From Desulfobulbaceae bacterium (GTDB lineage: Bacteria > Desulfobacterota > Desulfobulbia > Desulfobulbales > SURF-16), in NCBI GenBank assembly GCA_020444175.1, contig JAHLLM010000054.1:1-32513 (forward strand): 32,513 nucleotides of DNA, read 5' to 3'. This document shows, piece by piece, positions 150-28,305 of the stretch; the first letter of the stretch is position 1, and every line of letters starts with the position of its first letter. The position numbers were made by a program, and so were the translations under genes. Below the pieces are notes generated by a model. The model had not been told where the DNA came from, did not search any database, and was given only the letters and a program-made list of their open reading frames with translations.

Positions 150-941
150 ATGATCAGGAACAGGAAAAGCAAAAAAAAATTCATTGGCAGCAGGCCGCTA
201 TTCAGGGTCGTCATAAGTTGCTTGATTGCCGCCTGTCTTTTTTTTCCACCTTTAAGCAGTGCCGTAGAATTAACTGCCGCTATTTTTGAAATTGCTCCCT
301 GGGGGTATCGTGATGACAATGGCAAGGTCGCTGGTATTGAGTATGAAATTATCTCAGCTATTGCCAAAGAGTTGGGCCAACCCATTGATATCCAACTGCT
401 TCCCTATAATCGTATGATACGACACCTGGAAACCGGAGCGGCAGATTTTGCCATTTTTTATCGAAGCGAAAAAAGTGAAAAGGCGGGGGAGCCCCTTGTT
501 AAATGGGGGGATTTGGACATAATTGTCATTGGTCGTTCCGGTACGGACATCAAAACTTACGACGATTTAAAAGCATTGAGTATTGCCGTGCGGCTCGGAG
601 GATATTTTGACCCTCAATTTGACAGTGATACGACCCTGAGGAAGCATATGGTGGACAACTATGCTGATGGAATTCGCATGCTCAAGTCCGGTCGGATTGA
701 TGCTATCGTCGGTACCGCCGCAACCCTTTACTGGGAGCTGCAGAAACAGGGGCTTGTCTCCCAGGATTTTGGCAGGCCCTTTTTTTTAAGTACGGCTGCT
801 GACTGGCTGCATTTTTCTAGAAAATCAGCCAACCAGGACGCGAAAAAGAAAATCGTCCAAACAGTGGAAACGTTGATCAAGCGCGGGGAATTTGCTCGTA
901 TTTTTGCCAGGTATTTGCCAGCGGAGTGGCACCACCATTAA
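150..941 (+). CDS. Periplasmic solute-binding protein, SBP_bac_3 type (orphan)
   Basis: A 263-residue protein of the amino-acid-type (family 3) periplasmic binding fold. Residues 1-38 form a signal peptide: basic start, hydrophobic core around 18-34, likely cleavage after SSA. The mature part begins ELTAAIFEIAPWGY, typical of the first strand of this fold, followed by GKVAGIEYEIISAIAKELG and later a VRLGGYFD segment and a DGIRMLKSGRIDAIVG segment, both standard for the family. A purine-rich ribosome binding site (GGGGGGAGGGGA) precedes the ATG. No permease or ATPase gene is near. The stop is only 19 bases before the start of a membrane histidine kinase, so the protein probably presents a ligand to that kinase rather than to a transporter. 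The ligand cannot be read from the sequence. Confidence 0.88.
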   Translation: MIRNRKSKKKFIGSRPLFRVVISCLIAACLFFPPLSSAVELTAAIFEIAPWGYRDDNGKVAGIEYEIISAIAKELGQPIDIQLLPYNRMIRHLETGAADFAIFYRSEKSEKAGEPLVKWGDLDIIVIGRSGTDIKTYDDLKALSIAVRLGGYFDPQFDSDTTLRKHMVDNYADGIRMLKSGRIDAIVGTAATLYWELQKQGLVSQDFGRPFFLSTAADWLHFSRKSANQDAKKKIVQTVETLIKRGEFARIFARYLPAEWHHH

Positions 942-960
942 CAATGTCCGAGATGTGATA

Positions 961-3186
961 ATGAAGCTCAGGCTCCAGGACAGCCTGCATTACAGGCAGG
1001 CCGGAAACACCTTGTTTGCTGCCCTTTTATTGGGGCTTCTGTCCAGTTTGCTGCAAATTGGGGTGGATTTTTTTCACGAGAGGAGCAGAATTGAAAGTTC
1101 AGTCATACAGGTTCTGAAAACGGTACAGGAACCTGCTGCCCGTGCAGCTTATGGACTGCATCCTGATCTTGCCCAGACCGTTATTAACGGTCTGTTTGAG
1201 TATCAGTCTATTCATCAGGCCGTGCTCTATGATGATTTCGGCGGTGTTCTGGCGCAAGCAAAACGACAATTAAGCGAAGGGCATTTTGAATTTCTCTCAA
1301 TTAGAATCTGGGGCAAAACTTCATCGTACGAAATTCCACTTTTCGTTGATGGAGGGAAAAAATATGTCGGAAAAATTGCCGTCAACGTTGATAATTATCT
1401 GATTGCCCATAATTTCTTTCACCGAAGCCAGCTCATTATTTTTTCGGCCTTCAGCTTTTCAATTATTCTTTCACTTCTCCTGCTTTTTATTTTCTCCAGG
1501 CATCTCACCAGACCCTTACTCAAAACAGCGCGTTCGATTTCTGAAATTTCTCCCGCGGATCCGAAAGGAAAGTTGCTCCGTCTTCCCAAGGGACATGAAA
1601 AGGACGAACTGGGATTCCTGGTGACAACGGTTAATGAAATACTTGGCCGTTTTCAGGAAAATAAAATGCAGTTATCAGAGAGTGAGAATCGCTACCGGGG
1701 CCTTGTGGATAACATTGGTATTGGAGTGGCGCTCATCAGTCCGGATTTGGAAATCTTGTCAATGAATAAGCTGATGCGTGAACGATATCCCCATTTTGAC
1801 TGCAGCCGGAAGACTCGGTGTTATGAAGCTTTTTATGATCCTCCTCTGGGAAAAGCGTGTGTATACTGCCCTGTCGTTGAAACATTGAAAGACGGAGAGA
1901 GGCATGAAGTAGAAAAGGATATACCGTTGGGACAGAAGACGCTGAAGGCCTGGATTGTCACAACCCCGTTGAAAAATGAAAAAGGGGAGATAAACGGGGT
2001 TATTTATCTTATAAACGATATTACTGAGCGCAAAAAAAATGAGCTGGAACTCACGAAATACCGAGAGCACCTTGAAGACCTTGTTAAGGAACGTACAGAA
2101 AAATTAAGAGAATCCCATGAACGGCTGACCACCATTCTCAACAGTCTTGATGCCATTGTCTACCTTGCTGATATGGATACGGGTGAGCTTCTGTTCGTAA
2201 ATTCCTATGCAGAAAAACTTTTTGGCCAGGTTGCCGGAAAAACATGCTGGCAGGTCCTCCAAAATGGGCAGGATGGTCCCTGCTCATTTTGCACCAACAA
2301 GTACCTGCTTGATGAAAATAAAAATCCTAAAAAACCCTATGTCTGGGAATTCCAAAACACCATCAACGGCAGATGGTTTCATATTATAGACAGGGCAATA
2401 AAGTGGTTTGACGGTCGTATGGTTCGCCTGGAGATTGCAACTGATATTACAGACAGGAAAAAAATAGAGGAAGAGCTTGTCAAACGGGAGAAAATGGAGG
2501 CAACGGCTGTTCTTGCCGGCGGTATTGCCCATGATTTTAACAACCTCCTGGCGGCTATCATTGGATACGTTGATTTAACTCTGGATGATATCGGCAAACA
2601 TCACCCAGGTGCCTATACGCTTCAGGAAGCACTGAAGGCAAGTAGAAAAGCCCAGGATTTGACGAATAAATTCGTGACCTTTTCTTCAGGCGGCAGTCCG
2701 GTTAAAAAATTATCCTCTGTAAGGGATCTTTTGGAAAAAACAATTGAATCCACCCTTGAAAAAGACAGTTGTACAAGGGAGATAACCTTTGCAAATGACC
2801 TCTGGCAGGTAGATATGGATAGACGCCAGATGAGTCAGGTTTTTAAAAATGTTCTGCAGAATGCCATGGAATCCATGGCCGAGGATGGAGCGCTTCGAAT
2901 TCATGCTGAAAACATTTCCTTTCCGAATGGGGAAGAAATTCCTGATGAATCAGCCTGGGACAGAAAATTTGTCAAAATTACGATTCGTGACAATGGCAAA
3001 GGAATACCGGAAAAAATCATGCCGAATATTTTTGATCCTTACTTTTCCACAAAGGAAATGGGGGCGCAGAAGGGAATGGGACTTGGCCTGACCGTTGCCC
3101 TTTCCATTGTAAAACAGCATGACGGCTACCTTGTTGTACGTTCCGAAAAAAGAGGGACAGCTGTATCAATCTACCTGCCGGCTTAA
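961..3186 (+). CDS. Membrane sensor histidine kinase, HAMP-PAS-PAS-HisKA-HATPase
   Basis: A 741-residue inner-membrane kinase from the ATG at 961. The frame is open from 892, but that would overlap the upstream gene; 955 (GTG) is a near alternative. Transmembrane segments lie near residues 16-36 and 158-179, enclosing a periplasmic sensor of about 120 residues. HAMP is near 180-232, PAS1 about 243-357, a short coiled coil, PAS2 about 388-500. The phospho-acceptor motif GIAHDFNN has H524. ATPase motifs are NVLQNAMESM (630-639), DNGKGIP (677-683) and GMGLGLT (705-711). There is no receiver domain, so a separate response regulator is needed; none adjoins. Both PAS domains carry cysteine sets: C281/C287/C300/C303, and C429/C441/C444. 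This suggests redox or metal sensing. Its stop codon overlaps the convergent PilZ gene. Confidence 0.93.
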   Translation: MKLRLQDSLHYRQAGNTLFAALLLGLLSSLLQIGVDFFHERSRIESSVIQVLKTVQEPAARAAYGLHPDLAQTVINGLFEYQSIHQAVLYDDFGGVLAQAKRQLSEGHFEFLSIRIWGKTSSYEIPLFVDGGKKYVGKIAVNVDNYLIAHNFFHRSQLIIFSAFSFSIILSLLLLFIFSRHLTRPLLKTARSISEISPADPKGKLLRLPKGHEKDELGFLVTTVNEILGRFQENKMQLSESENRYRGLVDNIGIGVALISPDLEILSMNKLMRERYPHFDCSRKTRCYEAFYDPPLGKACVYCPVVETLKDGERHEVEKDIPLGQKTLKAWIVTTPLKNEKGEINGVIYLINDITERKKNELELTKYREHLEDLVKERTEKLRESHERLTTILNSLDAIVYLADMDTGELLFVNSYAEKLFGQVAGKTCWQVLQNGQDGPCSFCTNKYLLDENKNPKKPYVWEFQNTINGRWFHIIDRAIKWFDGRMVRLEIATDITDRKKIEEELVKREKMEATAVLAGGIAHDFNNLLAAIIGYVDLTLDDIGKHHPGAYTLQEALKASRKAQDLTNKFVTFSSGGSPVKKLSSVRDLLEKTIESTLEKDSCTREITFANDLWQVDMDRRQMSQVFKNVLQNAMESMAEDGALRIHAENISFPNGEEIPDESAWDRKFVKITIRDNGKGIPEKIMPNIFDPYFSTKEMGAQKGMGLGLTVALSIVKQHDGYLVVRSEKRGTAVSIYLPA

Positions 3187-16377: not shown

Positions 16378-17128
16378 GTGCTTCTCAGTGTATATTTTTA
16401 TTAATATATTCGATAGGTTTATTCTAATTTTTTTATTATCTAAATTTTTTTTTGGAGTGTCAAGGACTGATTCCCCTCAGCATTTAATCGTTTGTTCAGT
16501 ATGGTATACGCATGGGAATGGGAAAAAGGGCGGATTGTTTTGAGGGCACTCTGTAAAACATGCATTTTGGTTATATTTTTTTGAACGAAATCTATTAATA
16601 AAGAGCGGTTTTGATGTTGCAATTTCGTGTTATGATTTTTTCTTAAATCATGAGCATGGAAAGAGAAGAGCATTAAAAAGAATATCTTTCAGCCTGACTC
16701 CTTATATGTCCATATTGTGTCAATCATTGCAGTTTCCTGGAGTTATATATCTTTAAAGCGTACGGTTTTAAAGGGCGATGCGTAATATATTATGTTTTAT
16801 TTTGGGAATTTTAAAAAAGATAAACCCGTCTTTATGTGTTAGGGGGATTTACGTTTTCAAACCAAGGTTAATGGGTGTTTATTCATTTCATATAAAGAGG
16901 TTGAAATGGGAATAAGGGATGTTGCTTTTGATTATGGTGATAATTCTGTGTTAGGTGTGGTTAATTGCCGCATTTTGTTTGTTGATTAATTACTTCTTTA
17001 TAAGCTTGGAAATATCTGCATATAATAAATAAACTATTTACCTTCACTGAGGTGATTTGCAGTAAATAGAGTATGATAATATTGAATTGAATTATTAATC
17101 AGTGACTAACAATCGCAAGGAGAGATTT
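16378..17128. promoter_or_regulatory. Long AT-rich divergent intergenic region
   Basis: About 750 AT-rich bases between the diguanylate cyclase and the PstS-like gene. No convincing full-length gene is seen. Contents: an inverted repeat CTATTTAC/GTAAATAG (17034-17041 and 17062-17069) enclosing TCAC-TGAG-GTGA, about 60 bases before the PstS-like start; and a 27-codon open frame at 16906-16989 with a good ribosome binding site (AAGAGG, 5-base spacing) that could be a leader peptide or chance. The length suggests complex regulation or a decayed gene. Confidence 0.4.
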
Positions 17129-17944
17129 ATGAGCAGAAAAACTGTAGCCATTTTAACAATTTTTGCAATTGTGTGTTGGCATACTTTGGCGCAGGCCCAA
17201 GATGCAATCAGATATAACGGTTCATCAACAATATTAAAGGCGGTTATGTATGACGCTGCCAAAATTTTTAAAGAAGAAAAAGGTGTGGTTTTTGATCTCA
17301 AAGGCAAGAGCACTGGTTTTGGCATCAAAAAATTATTGGCCGGTGAGTGTGATGTGGCTGGCGGTGGTCGCCCACTAAGCACGGAGGAGCAAGGGAAAGG
17401 CCTGGTTGAGACAAAGGCCTTTCTTGATGCATATGCTTTTATCGTCAATAATTCAAACCCTGTTAATAGTATTACCTCCGAACAATTAACCGGTATCTTG
17501 AAAGGGCAAATAGTCAAATGGGATGACCTCAATGGGCCGGCCGGGAAAAAAATTGTTATATTATCACCCCCGGAAAAATCCGCACATTATAAAAACACAA
17601 AGAAAATTATCGGGTTTGATGCGCTTCCTGCTAACTCCATGATGGTTGACATGACCCCTAACGTATTAAAAAAGGTTCAATCCTTCCCCGTGGCTATTGG
17701 CTGGCTTTCTGCTGCTAATGTGAACGGAAATAAAGACGTCAAGCTGTTGCAGGTAATCCATAACGCTGAAGAAGTTGCCATCAATCAGTCAAATGTTTTG
17801 TCGGGGAAATATCCCTATCAGCAAACAATGTATTTTTATACTAAGGGAGAGCCAACAGGATCAGTGAAAGAGTTTATTGATTTCATGAAAGGTCCAAAGG
17901 GACAAACAATTATCACCAGTGCCGGATTTTTTCTAGCTGAATAA
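17129..17944 (+). CDS. PstS-like periplasmic substrate-binding protein (orphan)
   Basis: A 271-residue phosphate-type periplasmic binding protein. The signal peptide is residues 1-23, with cleavage after AQA. The mature start has the oxyanion-binding type motif YNGSSTI (29-35), followed by KGKSTGFGIKKLLAGECDVAGGGRPLS, as in PstS-like proteins, and a C-terminal YPYQQTMYFYTKGEPTGSVKEFIDFM segment typical of the family. AAGGAGAG six bases before the ATG at 17129 fixes the start. No pstCAB or phoU genes are near. The next gene, 87 bases on, is a chemoreceptor with a periplasmic domain, so this protein may be its ligand-binding partner. The ligand could be phosphate or another anion. Confidence 0.88.
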   Translation: MSRKTVAILTIFAIVCWHTLAQAQDAIRYNGSSTILKAVMYDAAKIFKEEKGVVFDLKGKSTGFGIKKLLAGECDVAGGGRPLSTEEQGKGLVETKAFLDAYAFIVNNSNPVNSITSEQLTGILKGQIVKWDDLNGPAGKKIVILSPPEKSAHYKNTKKIIGFDALPANSMMVDMTPNVLKKVQSFPVAIGWLSAANVNGNKDVKLLQVIHNAEEVAINQSNVLSGKYPYQQTMYFYTKGEPTGSVKEFIDFMKGPKGQTIITSAGFFLAE

Positions 17945-18031
17945 AATGTGCTGGAAGAAAGTATCGAAAACTGAAGCAAATCAGAGTTGTTTTTGAAGTG
18001 TTTTTTTAACCTTTCTGGGAGGAAAGTACGA

Positions 18032-19852
18032 ATGGGTGGTAAGAAAATCAGGTGCAACATGACCTTGAGGTCTAAGTTGATTCTTCTCATAATTCCATTG
18101 GTATTGTTGCCTGCCGCCTTCTTGACAGTTGTTTTTTATCGGAATGCCAAGGCGGACTTGAAAGTCAAAATTGAGGAATCCTTGGAAACAACAAGGAAAG
18201 CCTATAACAATGCCATAGAATCGACCAAGACTAAAGGGCTGAATTATGCATCTTTTCTCGCCCATGATAATTCCATAAAAGAAGCTGTTGCGTATGCTGC
18301 CATGACAGATGATAACCAGAGTATTTTGGATATTTTGGTTGAATACTACAAAGCACTTGATTTGAATAATATCGAATTCACCAACAAAGAGGGAGTCGTG
18401 CTGGCACGGGGTCATAAACCTGATAAGCATGGTGACAGTAAAAAGGATTTCCCATTTACAAAAAAAATGATGACCGAGCACGTCAAGACCTGGAATTATG
18501 AAGTTGGTAAAAACGGCATTACCCTCAAATTTGGCAGTCCGGTTTTTGAGGAGGATCAGTATACAGGCTTTGTGGGCTACGGCTACTACATCAATAACAG
18601 TTTTCTTGAGTCGATTGGGGAAGTTGCCAATGCTGAACTGGTATTTATTCTTAAAAAGAATAAAAGTCTCATTGCTGCAACCGTTGAAGGAATAGGCTTG
18701 CAGGATTTTAATGGGGATTTTTTGGAGCAAAGCTTTAAAGGCAAAGAAAATGTTGAACTGCAAAGAGATATTGGCGGCCAGATTTATGCGGCGATGTATC
18801 TTCCAATTATTGATGGAAATAAGCAGGTTTTTGGATCCATGGGTATTTTTAAAAATATTACCCGTGAGCTGAAAAGTGAAAAACGTAATTTGATTTTTTC
18901 TGTAATTTTAATAAGCACGGCGGTTCTTGTGGCCTTAGTTATTGCCCTGTATGTCATTCGTACTATTGTTGCGCCTTTTAACCAGGCAATTGAGCGTATC
19001 AGCGATTCCTCAGGCAATGTTTCTCTTGCATCGAACCAGATAGCCGGCGGCAGCCATGAGCTGGCCGAAGGCTCTTCGGAGCAAGCGGCAGCTTTAGAGG
19101 AGACGGCATCTGCCATGGAAGAGATGGCTTCAATGTCAAGACAAAATGCTGAAAATTCCGCACAGGGTGACAGGCTTATGCAGGAAACACATTCGTCAGT
19201 CAATTCGGCCAACGAATCCATGGCCGAATTGACTGTGTCCATGGAAGATATATCAAAGTCCAGCCAAGAAGCTTCAAAAATTGTCAAGACTATAGATGAA
19301 ATTGCCTTTCAGACAAATCTCCTCGCATTAAATGCTGCAGTGGAAGCTGCTCGAGCCGGAGAGGCTGGAGCTGGTTTTGCGGTTGTCGCGGATGAGGTGC
19401 GTAATCTGGCTATGCGTGCGGCGGAAGCGGCGAAGAATACCGCAGATTTGATTGATGGAATAGTCGGCAAGATTAATAATGGTTCAGCATTGGTTAATAA
19501 AGCAAACAAAAATTTCTCACACGTATCCGGCAGTACGAAGAATGTTGTTGACTTGATAGGGGAAATTTCCACCGCGTCAAATTCCCAGGCTGAAGGCATT
19601 GCTCAGGTAAATAAAGCCTTATCCGAAATGGATAGCGTTGTTCAGCGGATTGCGGCAAATGCTGAGGAATTCTCAGGTGCTTCTGAGGAAATGAATCTCC
19701 AGGTTGAGGAGATGGGGAAAGCTATCGGTGAAATGAAAATGTTGTTGGTAGGAGGAGGCAAAAATGATCATGATGCCGCTCATAGCAACTTCAGTGAAAA
19801 TGACGGATTTCAATCAGGAAGAGACAATCATTTAACACTGCCAGAAAAATAA
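18032..19852 (+). CDS. Methyl-accepting chemotaxis protein with double-Cache-like sensor
   Basis: A 606-residue chemoreceptor. Transmembrane segments near 15-36 and 286-308 enclose a 250-residue periplasmic domain of Cache type ([22 protein letters not shown], then a [20 protein letters not shown] end). The cytoplasmic part has a methylation-helix segment ([16 protein letters not shown], 350-365) and the hairpin tip [20 protein letters not shown]...[10 protein letters not shown] (422-460) that contacts CheA and CheW. The C-terminus has no CheR-tethering pentapeptide. The start at 18032 has GGAGGA eight bases upstream. It is probably co-transcribed with the PstS-like gene. No che genes are in the window. 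Confidence 0.94.
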
Positions 19853-19892
19853 CTCTTCTGAGACACGGGAAAGAGGGACAAAAAAATGTTTC

Positions 19893-19922
19893 GAGCCGCA
19901 GTCGTTTTTCAACTGCGTGCTC
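19893..19922. repeat. Hairpin related to the 12562-12622 element
   Basis: GAGCCGCAGT pairs with ACTGCG-T-GCTC (one bulged T), with a nine-base loop. The surrounding TTCGAGC(C)GCAGT..TTTTTCAAC text matches the right half of the repeat at 12596-12618, so this may be a decayed copy. It lies in the 304-base convergent gap 19853-20156, which otherwise holds a terminator-like hairpin and no gene. Confidence 0.4.
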
Positions 19923-20065
19923 AAGAATATGGATGGTATTGTTCCCCTTGTCTCATCCTCGTACGGAAACCAGTGGCAGAATAATCATTCTTCGCTTGAC
20001 CAGTGAAAATTGATAATGAAACAGGGTTCCTTGCCTGTAAATTTCAACCCTTTGCCAAATGATAC

Positions 20066-20094
20066 ATGTTTTACCCCATATCGGGGGAAAACAT
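20066..20094. terminator. Bidirectional terminator-like hairpin between convergent chemoreceptor genes
   Basis: ATGTTTTACCCC (20066-20077) pairs with GGGGGAAAACAT (20083-20094), 12 bp with one A-G mismatch and a five-base loop. T-rich sequence follows on the plus strand and flanks the arms on both sides. It sits between two convergent chemoreceptor genes, where a shared terminator is expected. Confidence 0.5.
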
Positions 20095-20156
20095 TTTCGT
20101 GTGACTAAAAAAACAGCAATTTTCATACGGGCATTTCCGGTATACAGGCATCTCTT

Positions 20157-21827
20157 TTAAAGTGCCTTAGATGACCGGATCTGCTTCAGGAAAACCTCTA
20201 CCTCGTCATGGAGCATACGGACTTTTTGGGAGAGATCGGATGCGGCTTCAAACACATGGGCTGCTGCATTTCCAGTATTTACTGCCTCCTCGGCTACAAC
20301 CGAAATGTTTGTTGACACGTCTTTGGTGGCTGAGGCCGCCTGTTGGGTGTTTATGGCAATTTTTTCGGTTACCTCCTCCTGATTATCAACAGCACCTGAA
20401 ATAGTCTCGGCAATATCGTTTAAGTCACCTATTGTTGCGCCAATATCCTTGATCGCTTCGACTGCATCATAAGTCGCTTTCTGGATTCCACTGATCTGAT
20501 CACTGATTTCAGTTGTAGCAGACGTGGTTTGCTTTGCCAGTTCTTTTACTTCATTGGCCACGACCGCAAACCCTTTTCCCGCTTCTCCGGCTCTGGCAGC
20601 TTCGATGGTGGCGTTAAGCGCCAGCAGATTGGTCTGGGCAGCTACATCTGTAATTAATTGCACCACCTCGCCTATCTTTTGAGATGAGTGAACAAGACTG
20701 CTGACGAGTTCATTGGAATGCTCAGCCTTTTCCACGGCTTTACTTGAAATTTCAAACGATTTACTTGCCTGCTGGTGAATTTCGCCCACAGAATCTGACA
20801 ATTGTTCCGTTGATAGAGCAACGCTTGAAACATTTGCAGATGTATCCTGTGCTGATATCGAGGCTGCATTGGATTTTTCCTTGGTCTGCTCAGCAGTGCC
20901 GGACATTGATCTGGCTGTTTCTTCCATCTCCCGGACCGCTTCTGAAACACTGGTAATCAGGCTGCCGATAGTTGTTTCAAAATCATCAGCCATTTGGTTC
21001 ATGAGTTTAATTTTTTCCTGTTCGGCATGCTTTTTATCAGATTCTTTTTCCTCTTCCAAACGTTGTCTTTCAATGGCGTTTTCTTTGAAAATCTGAACAG
21101 CATCAGCCATTTTACCGATTTCATCAGATCTGTCCTGGGCAGGAATATTCACATTTATATTTCCGTCAGCAAGCTGCGCCATGGCATGGGTCATCTTGAT
21201 AACAGGCTGGGTGATGGAGCGTGCCAGCAGGAAAATAATAGTACTTATCAACAGAAGGAGAACTGTATTCACGGCTGAGAGCATCATTTTCTGTTTTGCC
21301 AGCGAAGCATTGAGTGTGGCCAGATCGAAAGTAAGGGCAATAATTCCACCATGCTCATCTAGTTTCCATGCGGGATGGCAGCGCAGACAATCAGGTGTCA
21401 CAACTTGCGGCAGAAAAATTCGCACTTCAGATGTGCCAATTTTCCAGACCGGCTTGTCGGAGGCGTTCACTTCTGATATCATTTCCGTCTCCAGCGAATT
21501 ACCCTTCATTTCATCTCCAGATGATGAAAGGTTTACCTTGAGCTCTCTGTCATAAAGAGAAACGTCCAAAACCCCCTTTATTTTTTTCTGGTTGACCAAA
21601 AGTTTCTGGAAATTTTTCATCTGTCCCCTTTCCAGAGAATCCTTAACACCCTGCTGAAGAGATATAGCAAGGGTTTCAACGGAATCAATGTAGGCACTGG
21701 TCATTTTTTGTTTCACATAGGAATTTATCAGAAATGTGCCGGCCAGAAGTGATGCAAAAAGCACTATAACAACTGCAATCATCAGTTTCATTGATATCGA
21801 TAAACCAGAAAAGCTCACCTTCGCCAT
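20157..21827 (-). CDS. Chemotaxis protein with periplasmic c-heme (CxxCH) sensor
   Basis: A 556-residue chemoreceptor. Transmembrane segments near 14-35 and 183-203 enclose a 145-residue periplasmic domain containing CLRCH (147-151) within [11 protein letters not shown], a c-type heme attachment motif. Such single-heme periplasmic sensor domains are known in chemoreceptors of Geobacter and relatives; the fold here resembles Tll0287-like (DUF3365) domains. HAMP is about 203-256. The hairpin tip is [20 protein letters not shown]...[12 protein letters not shown] (393-433). GAGGAGAT eight bases before the ATG is a strong ribosome binding site. It starts 18 bases after the hydrogenase small-subunit stop on the same strand, so the three genes very likely form one operon. 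That ties the sensor to H2 or to periplasmic redox state. No pentapeptide tether is present. Confidence 0.93.
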
Positions 21828-21845
21828 TACAGTATCTCCTCGCGG

Positions 21846-22754
21846 TTATCCTTTTTTGTTAATCCTGTAGAAAGAAAAATCTTTTTTGCGGGCAAATGTG
21901 GGGGATGCACAACCGATGCAAGGTGCGTTGGCATCGATACACCATGTACATCCTCCATTCCACCAGCGAGTCGAACAGTCTGCTTTCGTCTGGGGGCCAA
22001 GACATCCCAGTTTAAACAGGCACCCTCTGTCACCCAGTTTTTTTGCAAAAATTTCTTGCTGAAAGTCGTGATAGCGGGGACAGGTTTCATGGATTGTGCG
22101 TGAATAGAAAAGATTGGGCGATCCTTCTTCTGTCAATTGCGGGAGTCCTATTTTGACAAGCTGCACGATTGTATGCCAGACCCAGTCAGGATGGACAGAA
22201 CAGCCTCTGATATTGACAACAATTTTTTCAATATTTCGTTTGGAGTAAAAATCCTGCAGTCCAACAGCGCCGGTTTGATTTCCTTCTGCCGCGGGTATAC
22301 CACCGTCACAGGCGCAGGACCCTATTGCCACTGCAGCAGTCATGGTGTGAGCTGCTTCTTCAAGATACGAGGCAAAAGTTCTTTCTCCGATAACGCAGGC
22401 CTCGGGCATATCTTCTGGAATAGCGCCCTCAACTGCCAAAATGTAATCACCGGCATTGCCGGAAATAAACTTTTCAATAAGCTCAAGGGACTGTTTCCCG
22501 GAAGTCGCTGAGAGATCGGCATGGAATGAAAGCTGGGAATAGTCGGTAATCATGGTAAGCGGAGAAGGGGATTCCGCCTGCAGCAGGGAAATGGAGCAGC
22601 CTGTGCACGATTGCCCCTGCAAGTAGATGAGCTTGGGAATCGTAGCAGGGTCAATTTTTTTCAAGGCAGCTCGAACCGGTTCCGGCAGGTTGCTTATACC
22701 AAAGGCCGTACTGAGTGTCGCAGCCACTTTAACAAATTCCCGTCTATCAAGCAT
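21846..22754 (-). CDS. Periplasmic NiFe hydrogenase small subunit, NiFeSe-like cluster set, Tat exported
   Basis: A 302-residue electron-transfer subunit of a group 1-type hydrogenase. The N-terminus has a twin-arginine signal (DRREFVK at 3-9, then a hydrophobic stretch). Proximal cluster ligands are C50 and C53 (GQSCTGC), C147 (GSCACDGG) and C185 (RGCSVHPDW). Distal ligands are H222 and C225 (HETCPRYH), C245 and C251 (GCLFKLGC). Medial ligands are C260, C279 and C282. C272, in TWC, replaces the usual proline of SWP, as in NiFeSe hydrogenases with a 4Fe4S medial cluster. C149 and C269 are extra cysteines. The ribosome binding site is AAGGAG. The protein lacks the C-terminal membrane anchor, so it should be soluble in the periplasm. 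It follows the large-subunit gene by 56 bases, the reverse of the usual order. Confidence 0.94.
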   Translation of the reverse strand: MLDRREFVKVAATLSTAFGISNLPEPVRAALKKIDPATIPKLIYLQGQSCTGCSISLLQAESPSPLTMITDYSQLSFHADLSATSGKQSLELIEKFISGNAGDYILAVEGAIPEDMPEACVIGERTFASYLEEAAHTMTAAVAIGSCACDGGIPAAEGNQTGAVGLQDFYSKRNIEKIVVNIRGCSVHPDWVWHTIVQLVKIGLPQLTEEGSPNLFYSRTIHETCPRYHDFQQEIFAKKLGDRGCLFKLGCLGPQTKADCSTRWWNGGCTWCIDANAPCIGCASPTFARKKDFSFYRINKKG

Positions 22755-22810
22755 GTTCTCTACTCCTTGAATGAATAATGCTCATACAACTGTCTCTTCA
22801 CCTTGGCTCG

Positions 22811-24322
22811 TTAATGAACCGCACAGGCCAGGCAGGGATCAAAAGAATGGACAATCCTGACTGATTCAATTTGTTCCTCTGGATTTTCTACCTGTGTGCC
22901 GATAAGTGCTGATTCAAGGGCTCCTTCATTGCCCCTGTCATCCCGTGGGGAACAGTTCCAGGTAGTGGGAACCACACACTCGTATTTTTCCACCTTATGG
23001 TTTTTCACTCGGATATAGTGCAGGAGAGCTCCCCGGGAGGCTTCTGTCGTACCATACCCCTCGCCGCTTTCCGGAATTTCAATCTCAGTGCCCCCGGGTT
23101 TGTCCGGATCAATTCTTTCGCATTCATCCAGAACAAAATCTGCAATAACAGCGGCGCATATGGCCCGACTGAGATGCCGTCCAAGAACGGAATTGAGTTT
23201 GTCAGGAGTAATGCCTGCAATGCCGGCAAAATGATTAACAAGCTCTGTGATACGGGAATTATTGCCTTGATGATAATCCACTAAAACTCGTGCCGCAGGT
23301 CCAACCTCTACCATCTGTCCATTGTAACGAGGCGCTTTCACCCAGGAATATGCCGTATCCTTTTTAGGCTCAGGGACAAGTTCTCCATCTTTGACAGCAA
23401 GACCGCTGGCAGATGAATATTTTGAATATTTGACATCCTCTGTAATCGCGCTCAATTGGACAGGGGACACATTGTTTCCAAAGAGAATACCCGGCGCAAT
23501 AAGGCGTTTGCTGTCACTCTGGGGTCCAAGGGGCAACAGGCCGTAGGACATGAATCCCCCCTTACTCTGTCCAATGTCCCAATATTCCGGAAAAGTTTGA
23601 GCGACTGCGACTAAATCGGGAATGTATTTTTGATGGATAAAATTACGAACTTCATGGATAAGAGCCTGGTATGAAGCTATATGATCAATGGTTGGTGTCT
23701 GGGAGCAGCCCCCGGGGAAAATAGCTGTTGCATGGGGAAATTTTCCTCCAAAAATGGCGGAGGCACGATTGGCTTTTTTCTGGATTTCCATGGACTCAAT
23801 ATAATGCTTTAAGGCACCGATATTTACCTCAGCATCTGTGATATATTTGCCGGACAAACGCGGCAGGAAGGGCGCGGCAGGATAGGTTTTTCCTGAAGCA
23901 AGTTCTGCTTTCACCCATTCCCTGACTTTAACAAGATCCGGGTCCTTGCCGCCATATTGAAGAATGGCTGTGATATCGACGAAATCCAGAGCGGAGAGTT
24001 GATAAAAATGAAGAAGGTAGTCGTAGAGGTGATTGGCACCTTGAATCAAATTGTGCAGGATGCGTCCGTTTGAGGTGACATCGAGATTATAGGCATTTTC
24101 CTGGGCATAAGAGGAGGCAATGGCATGTGCATAAGGACAGACTCCGCAGATGCGCTGGGTAATTTGTTGGGCGTCCAGAGGGTCGCGCCCCCGCAGAATA
24201 ACTTCAAACCCTCTGAACATCTCCCCGACGCATTGAGCATCCTCAATGATATTGTTGTTTATTGTTGTCTTTACATTGAGGTGACCCTCAAGTCTGGTAA
24301 CAGGACCAAGATCAATTTTCAT
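22811..24322 (-). CDS. NiFe hydrogenase large subunit without C-terminal maturation peptide
   Basis: A 503-residue catalytic subunit. The N-terminal nickel-binding motif is RICGVCPYAH (C59, C62, H66) and the C-terminal motif is DPCLACAVH (C497, C500, H503). The fourth nickel-ligand position that is selenocysteine in NiFeSe enzymes is an ordinary cysteine here (codon TGC). The stop follows H503 directly, so the peptide normally cut off by an endopeptidase after nickel insertion is absent. This is known for H2-sensing hydrogenases (HupV/HoxC) and a few others. The start at 24322 has GGAG eight bases upstream; the in-frame ATG at 24355 has none. It is the first gene of a probable three-gene operon with the small subunit and a heme chemoreceptor. 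No hyp genes, protease or cytochrome subunit adjoins. Confidence 0.95.
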   Translation of the reverse strand: MKIDLGPVTRLEGHLNVKTTINNNIIEDAQCVGEMFRGFEVILRGRDPLDAQQITQRICGVCPYAHAIASSYAQENAYNLDVTSNGRILHNLIQGANHLYDYLLHFYQLSALDFVDITAILQYGGKDPDLVKVREWVKAELASGKTYPAAPFLPRLSGKYITDAEVNIGALKHYIESMEIQKKANRASAIFGGKFPHATAIFPGGCSQTPTIDHIASYQALIHEVRNFIHQKYIPDLVAVAQTFPEYWDIGQSKGGFMSYGLLPLGPQSDSKRLIAPGILFGNNVSPVQLSAITEDVKYSKYSSASGLAVKDGELVPEPKKDTAYSWVKAPRYNGQMVEVGPAARVLVDYHQGNNSRITELVNHFAGIAGITPDKLNSVLGRHLSRAICAAVIADFVLDECERIDPDKPGGTEIEIPESGEGYGTTEASRGALLHYIRVKNHKVEKYECVVPTTWNCSPRDDRGNEGALESALIGTQVENPEEQIESVRIVHSFDPCLACAVH

Positions 24323-24798
24323 AAATAATTCTCCACTGTTAGGATAATTTTGCATACTTAAAGATTATTTCACGGGCGAATTGCCGAAGTCAATTGATTT
24401 ATTGACAATATTGTCGGAAAGCCAAAAAAATGTGAATAAACAGCAGGTTGTGGAGGGGGAAAAGAGCGGTGTCCCCCTTTGAAGGGCACAAACAATGAGA
24501 GCAAGTGATGTTTGTAAGACATTGTCATTAATAAAGACTGTGGAATGGCAGAGCATGAGACTCAGGTATCGATTCTGCCCAGAGTCACGTACGCCTCGGG
24601 CAGGAAGGACATCGACGTCTTTGAAAAAAGCAAAAATGAAATATGCTTAAAAAGCATCATATACAAGAGCAATGAGGTAAAACTCTCCAGGAACTTGCAA
24701 AAGACCATAAATTAGCAGTTCGACAATGAATAATTACAATTTTCACATGTACCTGCGGGGAGGCTTGGGGAGTGTTTCTCCAGAAACCGGCAAAGAGT
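24323..24798. promoter_or_regulatory. Intergenic region upstream of the hydrogenase operon
   Basis: This 476-base gap should contain the hydrogenase promoter (minus strand). A perfect 12-bp palindrome GACAATATTGTC lies at 24404-24415, about 80 bases upstream of the start, and could be an operator. ATGCTT-AAA-AAGCAT (near 24641-24655) is a further small dyad. A 56-codon plus-strand frame at 24545-24715 is listed separately. No other gene is seen. Confidence 0.4.
24545..24715 (+). CDS. Possible small protein or gene remnant
   Basis: A 56-residue frame, starting MAEHETQVSILPRV and ending LSRNLQKTIN. It is hydrophilic and without a signal peptide, membrane segment or recognised motif. The first half uses G- and C-ending codons (TAC GCC TCG GGC AGG AAG GAC ATC GAC GTC) unlike the AT-rich surroundings, which is the main reason to list it. 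There is no convincing ribosome binding site, so it may be a fragment of an older gene or chance. Confidence 0.2.
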   Translation: MAEHETQVSILPRVTYASGRKDIDVFEKSKNEICLKSIIYKSNEVKLSRNLQKTIN

Positions 24799-27435
24799 CT
24801 ACTCTGCAAGAATTTCTTTCATGGTTTTTGTCAGATTTTCCATTGTGTAGGGCTTTTGCAGAAAACCGTTAACGCCGAGCTGCATGACGTCGTCAACCCT
24901 TTCGTCATGCCGGAAGCCGGATGAAAGAAGCACTTTCGCATCCGGGTTGATTTTTTTTATTTCTAAATATGTCTCTTTGCCTGACATGATGGGCATTACC
25001 AGGTCAAGAAGGATTGCGGAAAGAGAGCTTTGTTTTTCACGATATATGTCGACACCTTCCTGTCCGTTTCGTGCCGCCAGGACGTCATAACCCGCTGATT
25101 TCAGAATGGCGCAAGCTGTTTCGAGCATGATGTCGTCGTCATCAACGACAAGAATGCATCCCTGGCCGGGATATATCAAGGGATCTTTCAGCAAGTCTTG
25201 TTCCCTGATCTGACGTTCTAGAAAGGGGAGATAAATATTGAAGGTGGAGCCCATATTCTTTTTTGAAGAGACGTCAATAAAGCCATTCAGTTGCTTGATA
25301 ATACTGTAGGCCATGGACAGGCCGAGCCCTGTTCCTTTGCCTTTTTCTTTTGTCGTAAAAAAAGGATCAAAGATTTTAGCAAGAACTGTACTGTCCATGC
25401 CAACACCAGTATCGGAGATAGAAACTACCCAGTAAAGGCCTTCTTTGGCGTCTGGATGTGATTGGCAGAAAATTCTATCAGACGTCATTTTTTTTAGACT
25501 GACCGTAAGATCTCCTCCCCAAGTGGTTTCACCTCGCATAATCGTCATGGAGTGTGCGGCATTGATGCAGATATTAAGGATAACCTGTTCGATTTGGGAA
25601 GGATCAGCAAGGCAATAAGCAGGTGCCGGCAACATCTGTATATTTATTTTGACAGACCTGTCAAAGGTGTTTTCACTGATTTTGCGGACATGCTTGATTG
25701 AGAGATTGAGATCAACGGGCACAAGTTCAATTTTCTGTTTGCGTGACAGGGTAAGTAACTGACGAACGAGGTCGGCGGCGCGGTATCCCCCAGTTGACAT
25801 GCTTTTGACATATTCCCGCAACTCCTCTTCGGAAATAAGTTCATGTTGATCAAGCCGGAACTGAATAAGGGACAGGTTGCCCAAAATGCCTCCCAATACA
25901 TTGTTGAAATCATGGGCTAGCCCGCCAGCAAGAGTGCCAAGGGATTCCATTTTTTGGGCCTGCTGAAGCTGTTTTTCCTTTGTTTCAAGTTCAGTTATAT
26001 CGTCAAGGCGAATGGCAATACCTGAGGTTCCGTTTGTGACCAGTGGGAAAATCGTCATATTGAACAGCCGTTCTTTGTCGCTGCCCATATGCTCCCGTTG
26101 AAGCTTGATCGTTTCAGGATAGAGGCTGATACGATCAACATGATCAATGTATTTGCGGAAAAAAGGTGCAATATTCCATATTTTCTCTCCAATTGCTTTT
26201 GTGGAAGGGATACCGGTAATGTGACTGGCGGCGCTGTTCCATTGAGTCACAATCAAATCTTTATCTATGGTAATCAGCATGGAAGGCATGGATTCGATGA
26301 TACTGTGGAGGTAGTTTCGCATCTGGGCAATTTCCTCAGATGCTTTTTTCTGTTGGGTAATATCTCGAATCAAACCTTCGTATCTTATGATTTGTCCTTC
26401 ACTGTTTCTTTCTGCATGGCAGGAGAGAGATGCCGTGATTGAACTGCCATCTTTTTTTAAAAGATTCAGTTCATATCCCTTGACAAAGTTTTGCTGGGTG
26501 ATTTGCTGCTTAAAAGCAGCAATGGCATCATGGTCAGCTAAAATGTCTGTGAAAAAATTACGAGGAAGCAAATTGTCAGAAGAGTCATAGCCCAGGATAG
26601 CAAGCATTGCCGGGTTAACGGCCTCGAAAATTCCGCTGCTGTCACATGCAAAAATGCCCTCCATGGCCCGTTCAAAAAGATGACGGAATTTTTTTTCCGA
26701 TGCTATCAGGTCATTCTCCCGTGCCTCGATGGCATGTACCATGACTTCAAGGGCTGACGAGAACCTTTGAAGTTCCCAGATGCGCTTGGATGAGGGCAGG
26801 GTAACGTTGAAGTCTCCCTGGCTGATACTTTCCGTGGCCTGCATGAACCTTGAAACTGGTTTTGTCAGCATGCGCGAAGCGCCAATCCCAACCAGGACGG
26901 CAATCATCCAGAAGAAAATGCCGGACAGGATGCCTTTGTTCTGGATATCGTGAATATGCGCCAGGATTTCATGCATGGACAAAAATATTCTGGCGTGCCC
27001 CATAAGTGAGTCACCTATGTAGATCGGGACCGTAACAGTAAGCTTATGAACTTGGCGATCGATATGTACTGAGATGTGATCTTCATTCTTCAAAGATTCT
27101 CCTGAAGGGGTATGTGGCATTATCGTGCCGAGCATGTTCAGGTCGGTGGCTGCGAGCATTGTCCAGTCGCTGTCGCTTATTTCAATAGTGTCTATGTTGG
27201 AAAGGGTCGCGAATTTCAGAATAGTATTCTGCAAAAGTGCGTAATCCTCGTTGATAATGTGATCTGCAACGGCATAAGCGGTATCAAAGGCAATGGTTTC
27301 TCCATATTCAGAAAGTTTGCTGAATGCATGTTCTTTTGCTCGCACTGTGTAAAGAGAGACTATGACGGACGTCAGCAGCAGGGTAATCAGGGAAACAGAA
27401 AGGATAAGATGAGTGCGGATTTTAAAAGCAATCAT
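24799..27435 (-). CDS. Hybrid sensor histidine kinase, HAMP-PAS-PAS-HisKA-HATPase-REC
   Basis: An 878-residue membrane kinase. Transmembrane segments near 9-31 and 168-187 enclose a periplasmic sensor of about 135 residues. HAMP follows (188-240), then PAS1 (245-362), PAS2 (373-482), a coiled coil, HisKA with H508 (GGLAHDFNN), ATPase motifs NICINAAHSM, DTGVGM and GTGLGLS (701-707), and a receiver domain (759-878) with D811 (LLDLVMP) and K861. It starts 6 bases after the PhnD-like binding-protein stop, with a weak ribosome binding site, so translation is probably coupled and the binding protein likely presents a ligand to it. No phosphotransfer protein or DNA-binding regulator adjoins, so the output is unknown. 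Confidence 0.94.
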   Translation of the reverse strand: MIAFKIRTHLILSVSLITLLLTSVIVSLYTVRAKEHAFSKLSEYGETIAFDTAYAVADHIINEDYALLQNTILKFATLSNIDTIEISDSDWTMLAATDLNMLGTIMPHTPSGESLKNEDHISVHIDRQVHKLTVTVPIYIGDSLMGHARIFLSMHEILAHIHDIQNKGILSGIFFWMIAVLVGIGASRMLTKPVSRFMQATESISQGDFNVTLPSSKRIWELQRFSSALEVMVHAIEARENDLIASEKKFRHLFERAMEGIFACDSSGIFEAVNPAMLAILGYDSSDNLLPRNFFTDILADHDAIAAFKQQITQQNFVKGYELNLLKKDGSSITASLSCHAERNSEGQIIRYEGLIRDITQQKKASEEIAQMRNYLHSIIESMPSMLITIDKDLIVTQWNSAASHITGIPSTKAIGEKIWNIAPFFRKYIDHVDRISLYPETIKLQREHMGSDKERLFNMTIFPLVTNGTSGIAIRLDDITELETKEKQLQQAQKMESLGTLAGGLAHDFNNVLGGILGNLSLIQFRLDQHELISEEELREYVKSMSTGGYRAADLVRQLLTLSRKQKIELVPVDLNLSIKHVRKISENTFDRSVKINIQMLPAPAYCLADPSQIEQVILNICINAAHSMTIMRGETTWGGDLTVSLKKMTSDRIFCQSHPDAKEGLYWVVSISDTGVGMDSTVLAKIFDPFFTTKEKGKGTGLGLSMAYSIIKQLNGFIDVSSKKNMGSTFNIYLPFLERQIREQDLLKDPLIYPGQGCILVVDDDDIMLETACAILKSAGYDVLAARNGQEGVDIYREKQSSLSAILLDLVMPIMSGKETYLEIKKINPDAKVLLSSGFRHDERVDDVMQLGVNGFLQKPYTMENLTKTMKEILAE

Positions 27436-27441
27436 AAGTTA

Positions 27442-28305
27442 TTAGAGCTCAGAACTACTTTTAAGGATCTTGCCAAAGGTGTCGTAATCCGAGTCTTGTG
27501 CCGGTACTATTTTTTGAAGACCCAGGCTGCGCAGTACTTTCTTATCCTCTTCATTGCCCGGATTGAGGCCAGTTAAGATATCGAGCACAGCCGAGATAAT
27601 TTCAGGGTCAATTCCATCTTTAACAACAAATGGAAATTGTGGAATTTGAGGAGATTTATTGATAATTGTCACTGTGTCCCTGATTGCTTCAAACATTGGT
27701 GAGTTCAAAGAGTCAAGCCTGATGACGCCTGCATCGTATTTCTTATTGAGTACTCCAAAAATGATAGAATCATTTTTTTTCAGAAAGTGGAAGTGCATGT
27801 CTTCTTCTGTGGACAAACCTCGCTCATGCATGGGCAATTTAAGGAACATGAAGCCTGCAAAGGAGTGCCTGCCTATGGCAGCTATCTTTTTTCCTTTGAG
27901 TTGCTCAAGAGAGGTGATGCCACTGTCTTTTCTCGTTATAACACCGCCGTGGAAAAATGGTTCTCCGCGAGCTATTACGTGGTAGCCGGCAGGCTGCATC
28001 ATGAAAAAGCATGTGACACAGGGAAGGGCCAGGTCGTACTCGCCTTTGATCCCTCTTTCAACAAAAGTATCAAAATCCGGAGCTGAGACAACATTCACCT
28101 TTTTTCCTGTTTTTTCCTGGATGCGTTTGGCAATGGGAGAAAAAAGTCTGAAAATGGTTTGTGGAGATTTATATGGAAAAATAGAGAATTTAATTGCATT
28201 TGGATAATCATGCGCATGAGCCAGTGCCTGGTCTATTAAGGATAACGCCGCAAAAAAGAGGACAAAAAGTGTTCCGAAAATAAGACTGCCTTTGCGTAGA
28301 TTCAT
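27442..28305 (-). CDS. PhnD-like periplasmic binding protein (orphan, kinase-linked)
   Basis: A 287-residue binding protein of the phosphate/phosphite/phosphonate (PhnD, PF12974-type) family. A signal peptide covers residues 1-29 (hydrophobic core 8-27, cleavage near ALA). The fold is recognised from FSIFPYKSPQTIFRLFSPIAKRIQEKTG, GEYDLALPCVTCFF, ITSLEQLKGKKIAAIGRHSFAGFMF, and KKYDAGVIRLDSL. C-C in PCVTCF is unusual and could be redox active. There is no phn/ptx permease or ATPase. Because its stop is 6 bases before the hybrid kinase start, it most likely works as an extracytoplasmic sensor subunit, as known for other PhnD-like and TctC-like proteins paired with kinases. The ligand is unknown. 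Confidence 0.88.
   Translation of the reverse strand: MNLRKGSLIFGTLFVLFFAALSLIDQALAHAHDYPNAIKFSIFPYKSPQTIFRLFSPIAKRIQEKTGKKVNVVSAPDFDTFVERGIKGEYDLALPCVTCFFMMQPAGYHVIARGEPFFHGGVITRKDSGITSLEQLKGKKIAAIGRHSFAGFMFLKLPMHERGLSTEEDMHFHFLKKNDSIIFGVLNKKYDAGVIRLDSLNSPMFEAIRDTVTIINKSPQIPQFPFVVKDGIDPEIISAVLDILTGLNPGNEEDKKVLRSLGLQKIVPAQDSDYDTFGKILKSSSEL

Follow-up and report, generated by a model that had tools for sequence, protein, structure and literature searches.

A conserved locus joining a peptide-less [NiFe] hydrogenase to a heme-motif chemoreceptor: a probable H2-sensing module in relatives of sulfate reducers

Molecular hydrogen is a central currency of anoxic sediments, yet little is settled about how bacteria locate it. 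The question bears on a 32,513-nucleotide stretch of DNA from a Desulfobulbaceae bacterium (assembly GCA_020444175.1, contig JAHLLM010000054.1; hereafter, the window), on which genes for a [NiFe] hydrogenase large subunit (LSU), its small subunit (SSU), and a chemoreceptor follow one another on the minus strand with gaps of 56 bp and exactly 18 bp (Table 1). An earlier interpretation made from the letters alone (the sequence-only reading) had proposed that H2-derived electrons reduce a heme on this receptor and thereby drive chemotaxis. Its description of the LSU–SSU–receptor order, the coordinates, the strand, the 18-bp gap, and a single CxxCH motif was confirmed by the sequence and by Pfam. 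The analysis reported here shows that the hydrogenase is genetically linked to chemosensing, and indicates that the module is probably a so far undescribed H2-sensing and steering device occurring in many relatives of sulfate reducers.

Conservation of the pairing, on which the sequence-only reading had staked its proposal beforehand, was evaluated with relatives gathered by the LSU alone. Overlapping sets were used, comprising 24 loci from a one-genome-per-species collection, 58 relatives, 395 genomes across the phylum, all 257 available genomes of the order, and 297 genomes searched for the family. These genome searches covered the window's phylum, and a wider scan for close relatives gave 24 records labelled Deltaproteobacteria, Thermodesulfobacteriota or their groups, or only Proteobacteria/Pseudomonadota. 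From these sets, a census was made of 74 distinct LSUs without the C-terminal maturation peptide and with the SSU gene downstream (57 clusters at 90% identity, 34 at 80%), in which the two traits used for selection are not counted as support. The pairing proved strongly conserved: a sensory gene with a CxxCH heme motif comes next in 72 of the 74, and the two exceptions (L025 and L170) both run off their contigs. Left out of the census were L054, which is cut by its contig end, and L072, whose LSU end is frameshifted and whose genome carries the SSU end and a receptor on another contig; L188 and L189, which have no peptide and an upstream SSU, were set apart. No CxxCH sensory gene was seen at 43 distinct contrast loci (45 rows) of other group-1 LSUs, a comparison limited to the next gene because only 3 of their flanks exceed 3 kb, while 32 have more than 1.2 kb downstream. 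The SSU gene lies upstream at 38 of these loci and downstream at one, and was not in view at the other 4; a peptide was read in 35 and an odd tail in 1, and 7 end at an in-frame TGA of a selenocysteine-type LSU, where the profile match runs past the TGA.

The same association was obtained when the search was started from the receptor. A profile built from 20 hydrogenase-linked sensor domains (cut-off E 1e-10) detected 50 loci in 44 of the 257 genomes of the order, and 48 of them adjoin hydrogenase genes when coordinates are compared by eye; a profile of this origin leaves heme receptors that are more distant out of the count. One of the two exceptions, in the incomplete genome G605, is a broken fragment; the other is weighed below. 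Chance adjacency of hydrogenase and receptor is ruled out by the census and by this receptor count. Variants of the arrangement were also seen: a second heme methyl-accepting chemotaxis protein (MCP) gene (L016:5676-7097, minus strand) is divergent from a hydrogenase operon that itself ends in another heme MCP, and at a Desulfotignum locus (L021) a helix-turn-helix response regulator gene stands ahead of the operon (L021:9394-9972) and an extra MCP gene without a heme motif (L021:12570-13967) lies between SSU and heme MCP.

The LSU terminates in the same manner as the regulatory HoxC of Cupriavidus and Afipia, directly after DPCLACAVH, as the sequence-only reading had noticed for the missing peptide; HybC, HyaB, HoxG, and the LSU of another group-1 hydrogenase encoded by the window genome carry the extra C-terminal peptide. 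It scored 579.7 bits against NCBIfam NF033181, below that model's cut-off of 600, and its start at 24322 agrees with homologues, the open reading frame (ORF) being extendable to 24355. The peptide is missing in 68 of 70 distinct LSUs picked by identity (>39%), the remaining two being the contig-cut L054 and the frameshifted L072; this is an unbiased figure, since the sample was picked by LSU identity alone. In a 103-row tree, peptide presence switches only once. The heme-linked rows lie outside 61 uptake-type rows but adjoin them, with long branches and unusual composition flagged, and they stand apart both from two HoxC references and from the peptide-less L188 and L189. The trees are quick ones with SH-aLRT support only (Shimodaira–Hasegawa-like approximate likelihood ratio test), built without partial LSUs and near duplicates. 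Placement among ordinary uptake enzymes, which had been named as a possible objection, was thus not found in this sample, but neither was placement with the sensory group 2b. L188 and L189 (LSU end DPCMSCTVH; a 782-aa protein downstream in L189), which belong to the same order as the window, are possibly sensors of the 2b-like kind.

The SSU begins with MLDRREFVK, a twin-arginine (RR) motif of the Tat type. The pattern RRx[FLM] occurs in the SSUs of 69 of 74 relatives; three more have RR with other residues, and two probably have mis-set ORF starts. Unlike HybO and HoxK, the window's SSU has no C-terminal hydrophobic tail. Its cluster-ligand cysteines are retained, and a further Cys, which we take to belong to a [4Fe4S] medial cluster, stands near that cluster where HybO, HyaA, and HoxK have Pro and HoxB also has Cys. 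Motif and cysteines predict a Tat-exported, Fe-S-bearing subunit.

The third gene encodes a chemoreceptor: MCPsignal matched with 102.2 bits against a curated Pfam cut-off of 34.6, and HAMP was also matched. An AlphaFold model of receptor residues 1–200 (mean predicted local distance difference test score, pLDDT, 86.7) places the CxxCH motif between two long helices that were taken for membrane helices. The modeled domain has a single-Cache fold in which the motif precedes the last strand, with helix 147–150 lying between strands 134–142 and 159–168. Foldseek with this model gave a WalK Cache model as the best match (E 3e-8), followed by GSU0935 (7e-5), GSU0582 (7e-4), and Tll0287 (4e-3), the heme-domain matches being 3b42, 3b47, and 5b82. 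The Pfam Tll0287-like family matched the receptor only weakly (E 0.0069; 17.3 bits against a cut-off of 24.1). PDB searches with the sensor-domain sequence gave chance matches only, so that its relation to heme domains is based on fold and motif. All 63 aligned receptors have C147, C150, and H151, and a covalently bound heme c is predicted from the CxxCH motif. The position of Met70, a candidate distal ligand, is Met in 54 of the 63 and Arg in the nine receptors with two CxxCH motifs (L080–L088).

These 63 receptors, which have intact 3′ ends and more than 380 aa (9 of the 72 loci were omitted, their receptor being cut or split), were scanned with Pfam for their outputs. MCPsignal was found in 54 and HATPase_c in 8 (Hpt in 7), and the last one, L085, is frameshifted with a second part resembling CheA. 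A histidine-kinase output suspected for receptors of about 470 aa proved wrong, as those scanned are MCPs. The nine receptors of a branch with 42–46% identity (L080–L088) each carry two CxxCH motifs, the receptor of this branch being a CheA-like kinase. When L080 and L087 were scanned singly, HATPase_c was found in both and Hpt also in L087, with CheX and a CheY-like regulator adjoining; by similarity, CheX comes next in 9 of 9 loci of this branch and CheY is present in 8 of 9. Four genomes (G006, G020, G024, and G046) carry both the two-motif kinase and the MCP form. CheA directly follows the heme MCP in 11 of the 72 loci, plus one cut by a contig end, and the Desulfotignum and Desulfobacula loci have CheA together with CheW, CheB, and CheR (CheB and CheR are cut off in L013). 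Flagellin was matched in 44 of the 47 genomes of the order that bear the LSU, versus 125 of the 210 other genomes (Fisher p 2e-6, uncorrected for kinship and completeness).

The reading of the three genes as a signalling module is well supported by these data. We further consider it likely that together they encode a periplasmic sensor dedicated to H2, whose hydrogenase would reduce the heme of the receptor and whose output would be chemotaxis. The hydrogenase would be assembled in the cytoplasm by the general Hyp machinery with no peptide to clip, and exported as a soluble heterodimer through the Tat route. It would then oxidize H2 in the periplasm at its NiFe site, and the electrons would pass along the Fe-S relay of the SSU to the c-type heme of the receptor Cache domain. 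Heme reduction, probably with binding of Met70, would alter the receptor dimer and hence CheA activity, by which cell movement would be adjusted to H2. In the branch with two CxxCH motifs, a CheA-like kinase stands in place of the MCP, with CheX next to it and CheY in most cases. The steps that we infer from the genes are binding of the hydrogenase to the receptor, transfer of electrons from H2 to the heme, the direction of the response, and taxis itself. The H2-to-heme wiring is plausible. We estimated by the Nernst equation that the H2/H+ couple lies near −270 mV at pH 7 and about 10 nM H2. In GSU0935, the heme ligands are Met60 and His144; Met60 is bound when the heme is reduced and dissociates when it is oxidized. 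The midpoint potentials of GSU0935 and GSU0582 are −251 and −156 mV (PMC8396549). A heme similar to these could hence switch in the natural H2 range. On balance, we also favor the broader proposal that the module represents an unrecognized exported [NiFe] sensory family, apart from groups 2b and 2c, which would deliver H2 electrons to heme c in chemoreceptors or membrane CheA-type kinases, and would form a periplasmic H2-to-CheA/CheY route that is widespread in at least one phylum.

Several observations weigh against this interpretation. Soluble periplasmic uptake hydrogenases of sulfate reducers likewise have no membrane subunit, and c-type cytochromes receive their electrons. Of 71 readable LSUs, 68 have the ordinary Val ahead of the second Cys of RxCGxC, a gas-channel position, and 3 have Ile, the residue of HoxC. 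The 38 heme-linked rows do not form one clade in the free quick tree, which takes two changes; when they are kept in one group, the log-likelihood of the tree is 15.96 higher (p-AU of the approximately unbiased test, 0.724), and a single origin is therefore compatible with the data. The second exception to the receptor count is another such receptor in the window genome itself, a 488-aa MCP on contig C49 (L202:5001-6467) that stands away from hydrogenase genes and may use the hydrogenase in trans. A second look at the fold with VIA-align gave WalK and other Cache domains, with no heme domain among the best 50 rows. Three of the 47 LSU-bearing genomes have no flagellin match, and some members may not swim. 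Moreover, a signalling heme-Cache domain with the properties of a nitric oxide (NO) sensor is described in a 2026 preprint (PMC12889525), and a described Desulfotignum species, which may or may not carry the module, has no flagellar structural proteins according to the available part of its genome paper (PMC4046663). The output need not be swimming in all carriers of the module.

These points are best judged against three other explanations. If the pair were an ordinary uptake hydrogenase feeding periplasmic cytochromes, sharing a transcript with a receptor for redox or energy taxis since each is of use where H2 occurs, then the Tat motif, the cluster-bearing SSU, the ordinary Val at the channel position, and the peptide-bearing group-1 enzymes as nearest tree relatives would all be expected. 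Against it stand the missing peptide in all but the two unreadable members of the identity-picked sample, the sensory gene at each of the 72 census loci whose contig is long enough, the near confinement of the sensor type to hydrogenase loci (48 of 50), and the peptide-bearing second group-1 hydrogenase of the organism; we hold this explanation to be quite unlikely. The conserved pairing fits any physical partnership, which leads to another version in which signalling occurs without electron transfer: H2 turnover would reshape a receptor-bound hydrogenase, the heme would read NO or redox state, and the two inputs would be integrated. That a signal-linked heme-Cache domain binds NO (PMC12889525), and that the GSU0935 and GSU0582 domains both bind NO and carbon monoxide (PMC8396549), agree with it. 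The invariant heme-motif residues and the Met70 kept in all 54 receptors outside the two-motif branch suit a redox heme, and the SSU retains its cluster cysteines; this version appears unlikely.

The same gas-binding data, with a report that DcrA, another c-heme receptor, senses oxygen or redox potential (PMC8396549), can also be read to mean that the receptor detects an oxidant or NO and that the hydrogenase merely re-reduces the heme, H2 being fuel and not signal. A dedicated hydrogenase would be a costly source of reductant for such a purpose, and the parts available of two papers on the GSU receptors do not contain the word hydrogenase (PMC12889525, PMC2577667), nor does that of a further one contain "hydrogen" (PMC8396549). 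We regard this explanation as very unlikely, and continue with the H2-sensor interpretation.

How does such a sensor relate to known systems? It resembles the group 2b regulatory hydrogenases HupUV/HoxBC with HupT/HoxJ in its LSU without peptide, in the Cys replacing Pro at the medial position, and in having a signalling partner; a regulatory hydrogenase without the C-terminal peptide is on record (PMC8229454). HoxB differs from the window's SSU in having no Tat motif, HoxB precedes HoxC whereas the LSU gene comes before the SSU gene here, and group 2b enzymes pair with a HupT/HoxJ-type histidine kinase, in place of an MCP or, in the two-motif branch, a CheA-like kinase. Membership in group 2b was rejected on account of the tree (with two HoxC references only, which stand apart), the Tat motif, and the type of partner; HoxC differs also in its Ile at the channel position. 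The group-1 periplasmic [NiFe]/[NiFeSe] enzymes of HynAB/HysAB type share the predicted exported heterodimer and include the nearest LSU relatives; the module differs from them in its missing peptide, its LSU-before-SSU order, and the receptor in its operon. On the receptor side, GSU0935, GSU0582, DcrA, and the Tll0287 family (sCache_heme) share the Cache fold, a CxxCH motif that precedes the last strand, a Met spaced as the distal ligand, and MCP output. Unlike those receptors, the subtype described here adjoins a hydrogenase at nearly all of its loci, and the GSU papers name no hydrogenase partner in the parts of their text available.

The sequence-only reading had considered a periplasmic H2-sensing hydrogenase wired to a chemoreceptor to be new. 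Hydrogenases of [FeFe] group C2 are likewise proposed to sense H2 and to signal through MCPs; they are enzymes of unrelated fold and cytoplasmic, and we know of no Tat export or heme receptor for them. The HydDB table lists sensory [NiFe] groups 2b and 2c and this putative chemotactic group C2 (PMC5037454), and the MCP-linked hydrogenase is therefore already known as an idea; no exported [NiFe] type with a heme receptor was found among the HydDB table rows examined (PMC5037454). No published description of the module was found by title and abstract opening among the matches listed, in a search that lay mostly outside subscription papers. In the part seen of the genome paper of Desulfotignum phosphitoxidans, periplasmic hydrogenases are counted as electron-transfer machinery and one CheA is reported (PMC4046663).

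The surroundings of the module were also inspected (Table 1). No cytochrome subunit, hyp gene, or protease was recognized in the window by Pfam on 16 window proteins and by eye for other ORFs of at least 150 aa, as the sequence-only reading had stated for the vicinity; ORFs of 80–149 aa were covered in 17000–28000, and a small hypA or hypC elsewhere in the window could escape. HypD and the sole HycI-type protease match of the genome lie on contig C78, alongside the other hydrogenase. Neither a sigma-28 nor a sigma-54 promoter showed a clear excess ahead of the LSU gene versus shuffled sequence, and the window's upstream kinase and PhnD-like genes were not seen adjoining the module in the relatives listed. 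The window is rich in periplasmic sensing genes: a solute-binding-protein gene stands beside a histidine kinase or chemoreceptor gene three times, as SBP_bac_3 with a kinase (150-3186), PBP_like_2 with a dCache_3 MCP (17102-19852), and a phosphonate-type binding protein with a PAS kinase (24799-28305). A plasmid search gave a best identity of 34.9%, with all values below 60% among the best 25 of 129 records. At six loci of order-level relatives (L114, L115, L123, L130, L131, and L133), a different group-1 LSU with a peptide carries TGA, in frame, at precisely the codon where the N-terminal RxCGxC motif should have its second Cys (RICGV or RFCGV, then TGA; 6 of 6). This suggests selenocysteine at what we take to be the bridging-ligand position, and not at the C-terminal position that we assume for the selenocysteine of NiFeSe enzymes.

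Table 1. Features of the hydrogenase–chemoreceptor locus, in positions of the window.
Feature	Positions	Strand	Basis
[NiFe] hydrogenase LSU, 503 aa, no C-terminal maturation peptide	22811..24322	-	Pfam NiFeSe_Hases, 507.9 bits
DPCLACAVH, C-terminal end directly ahead of the stop codon	22814..22840	-	Sequence reading; pattern DPCxxCxxH in relatives
Hydrogenase SSU, 302 aa, Tat signal (predicted), no C-terminal anchor	21846..22754	-	Pfam Oxidored_q6 and NiFe_hyd_SSU_C; alignment to HybO, HyaA, HoxK, HoxB
SSU–receptor junction, 18 bp, with a GAGGAG Shine-Dalgarno-like stretch	21828..21845	-	Direct sequence reading
Chemoreceptor, 556 aa: helix, periplasmic single-Cache domain with heme c motif (modeled), helix, HAMP, MCP signalling domain	20157..21827	-	Pfam HAMP and MCPsignal; AlphaFold, Foldseek
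CxxCH heme c attachment motif (CLRCH, residues 147–151)	21375..21389	-	Invariant in aligned receptors
Met70, candidate distal heme ligand	21618..21620	-	Putative spacing counterpart of GSU0935 Met60

If the proposed function is true, the module would explain in molecular terms how sulfate reducers and their kin seek H2, and would add a periplasmic branch to H2 sensing. It would also show that a chemoreceptor can accept electrons from an associated enzyme instead of binding a ligand. Hydrogenases of this type should then not be counted as evidence of H2 respiration in genome surveys.

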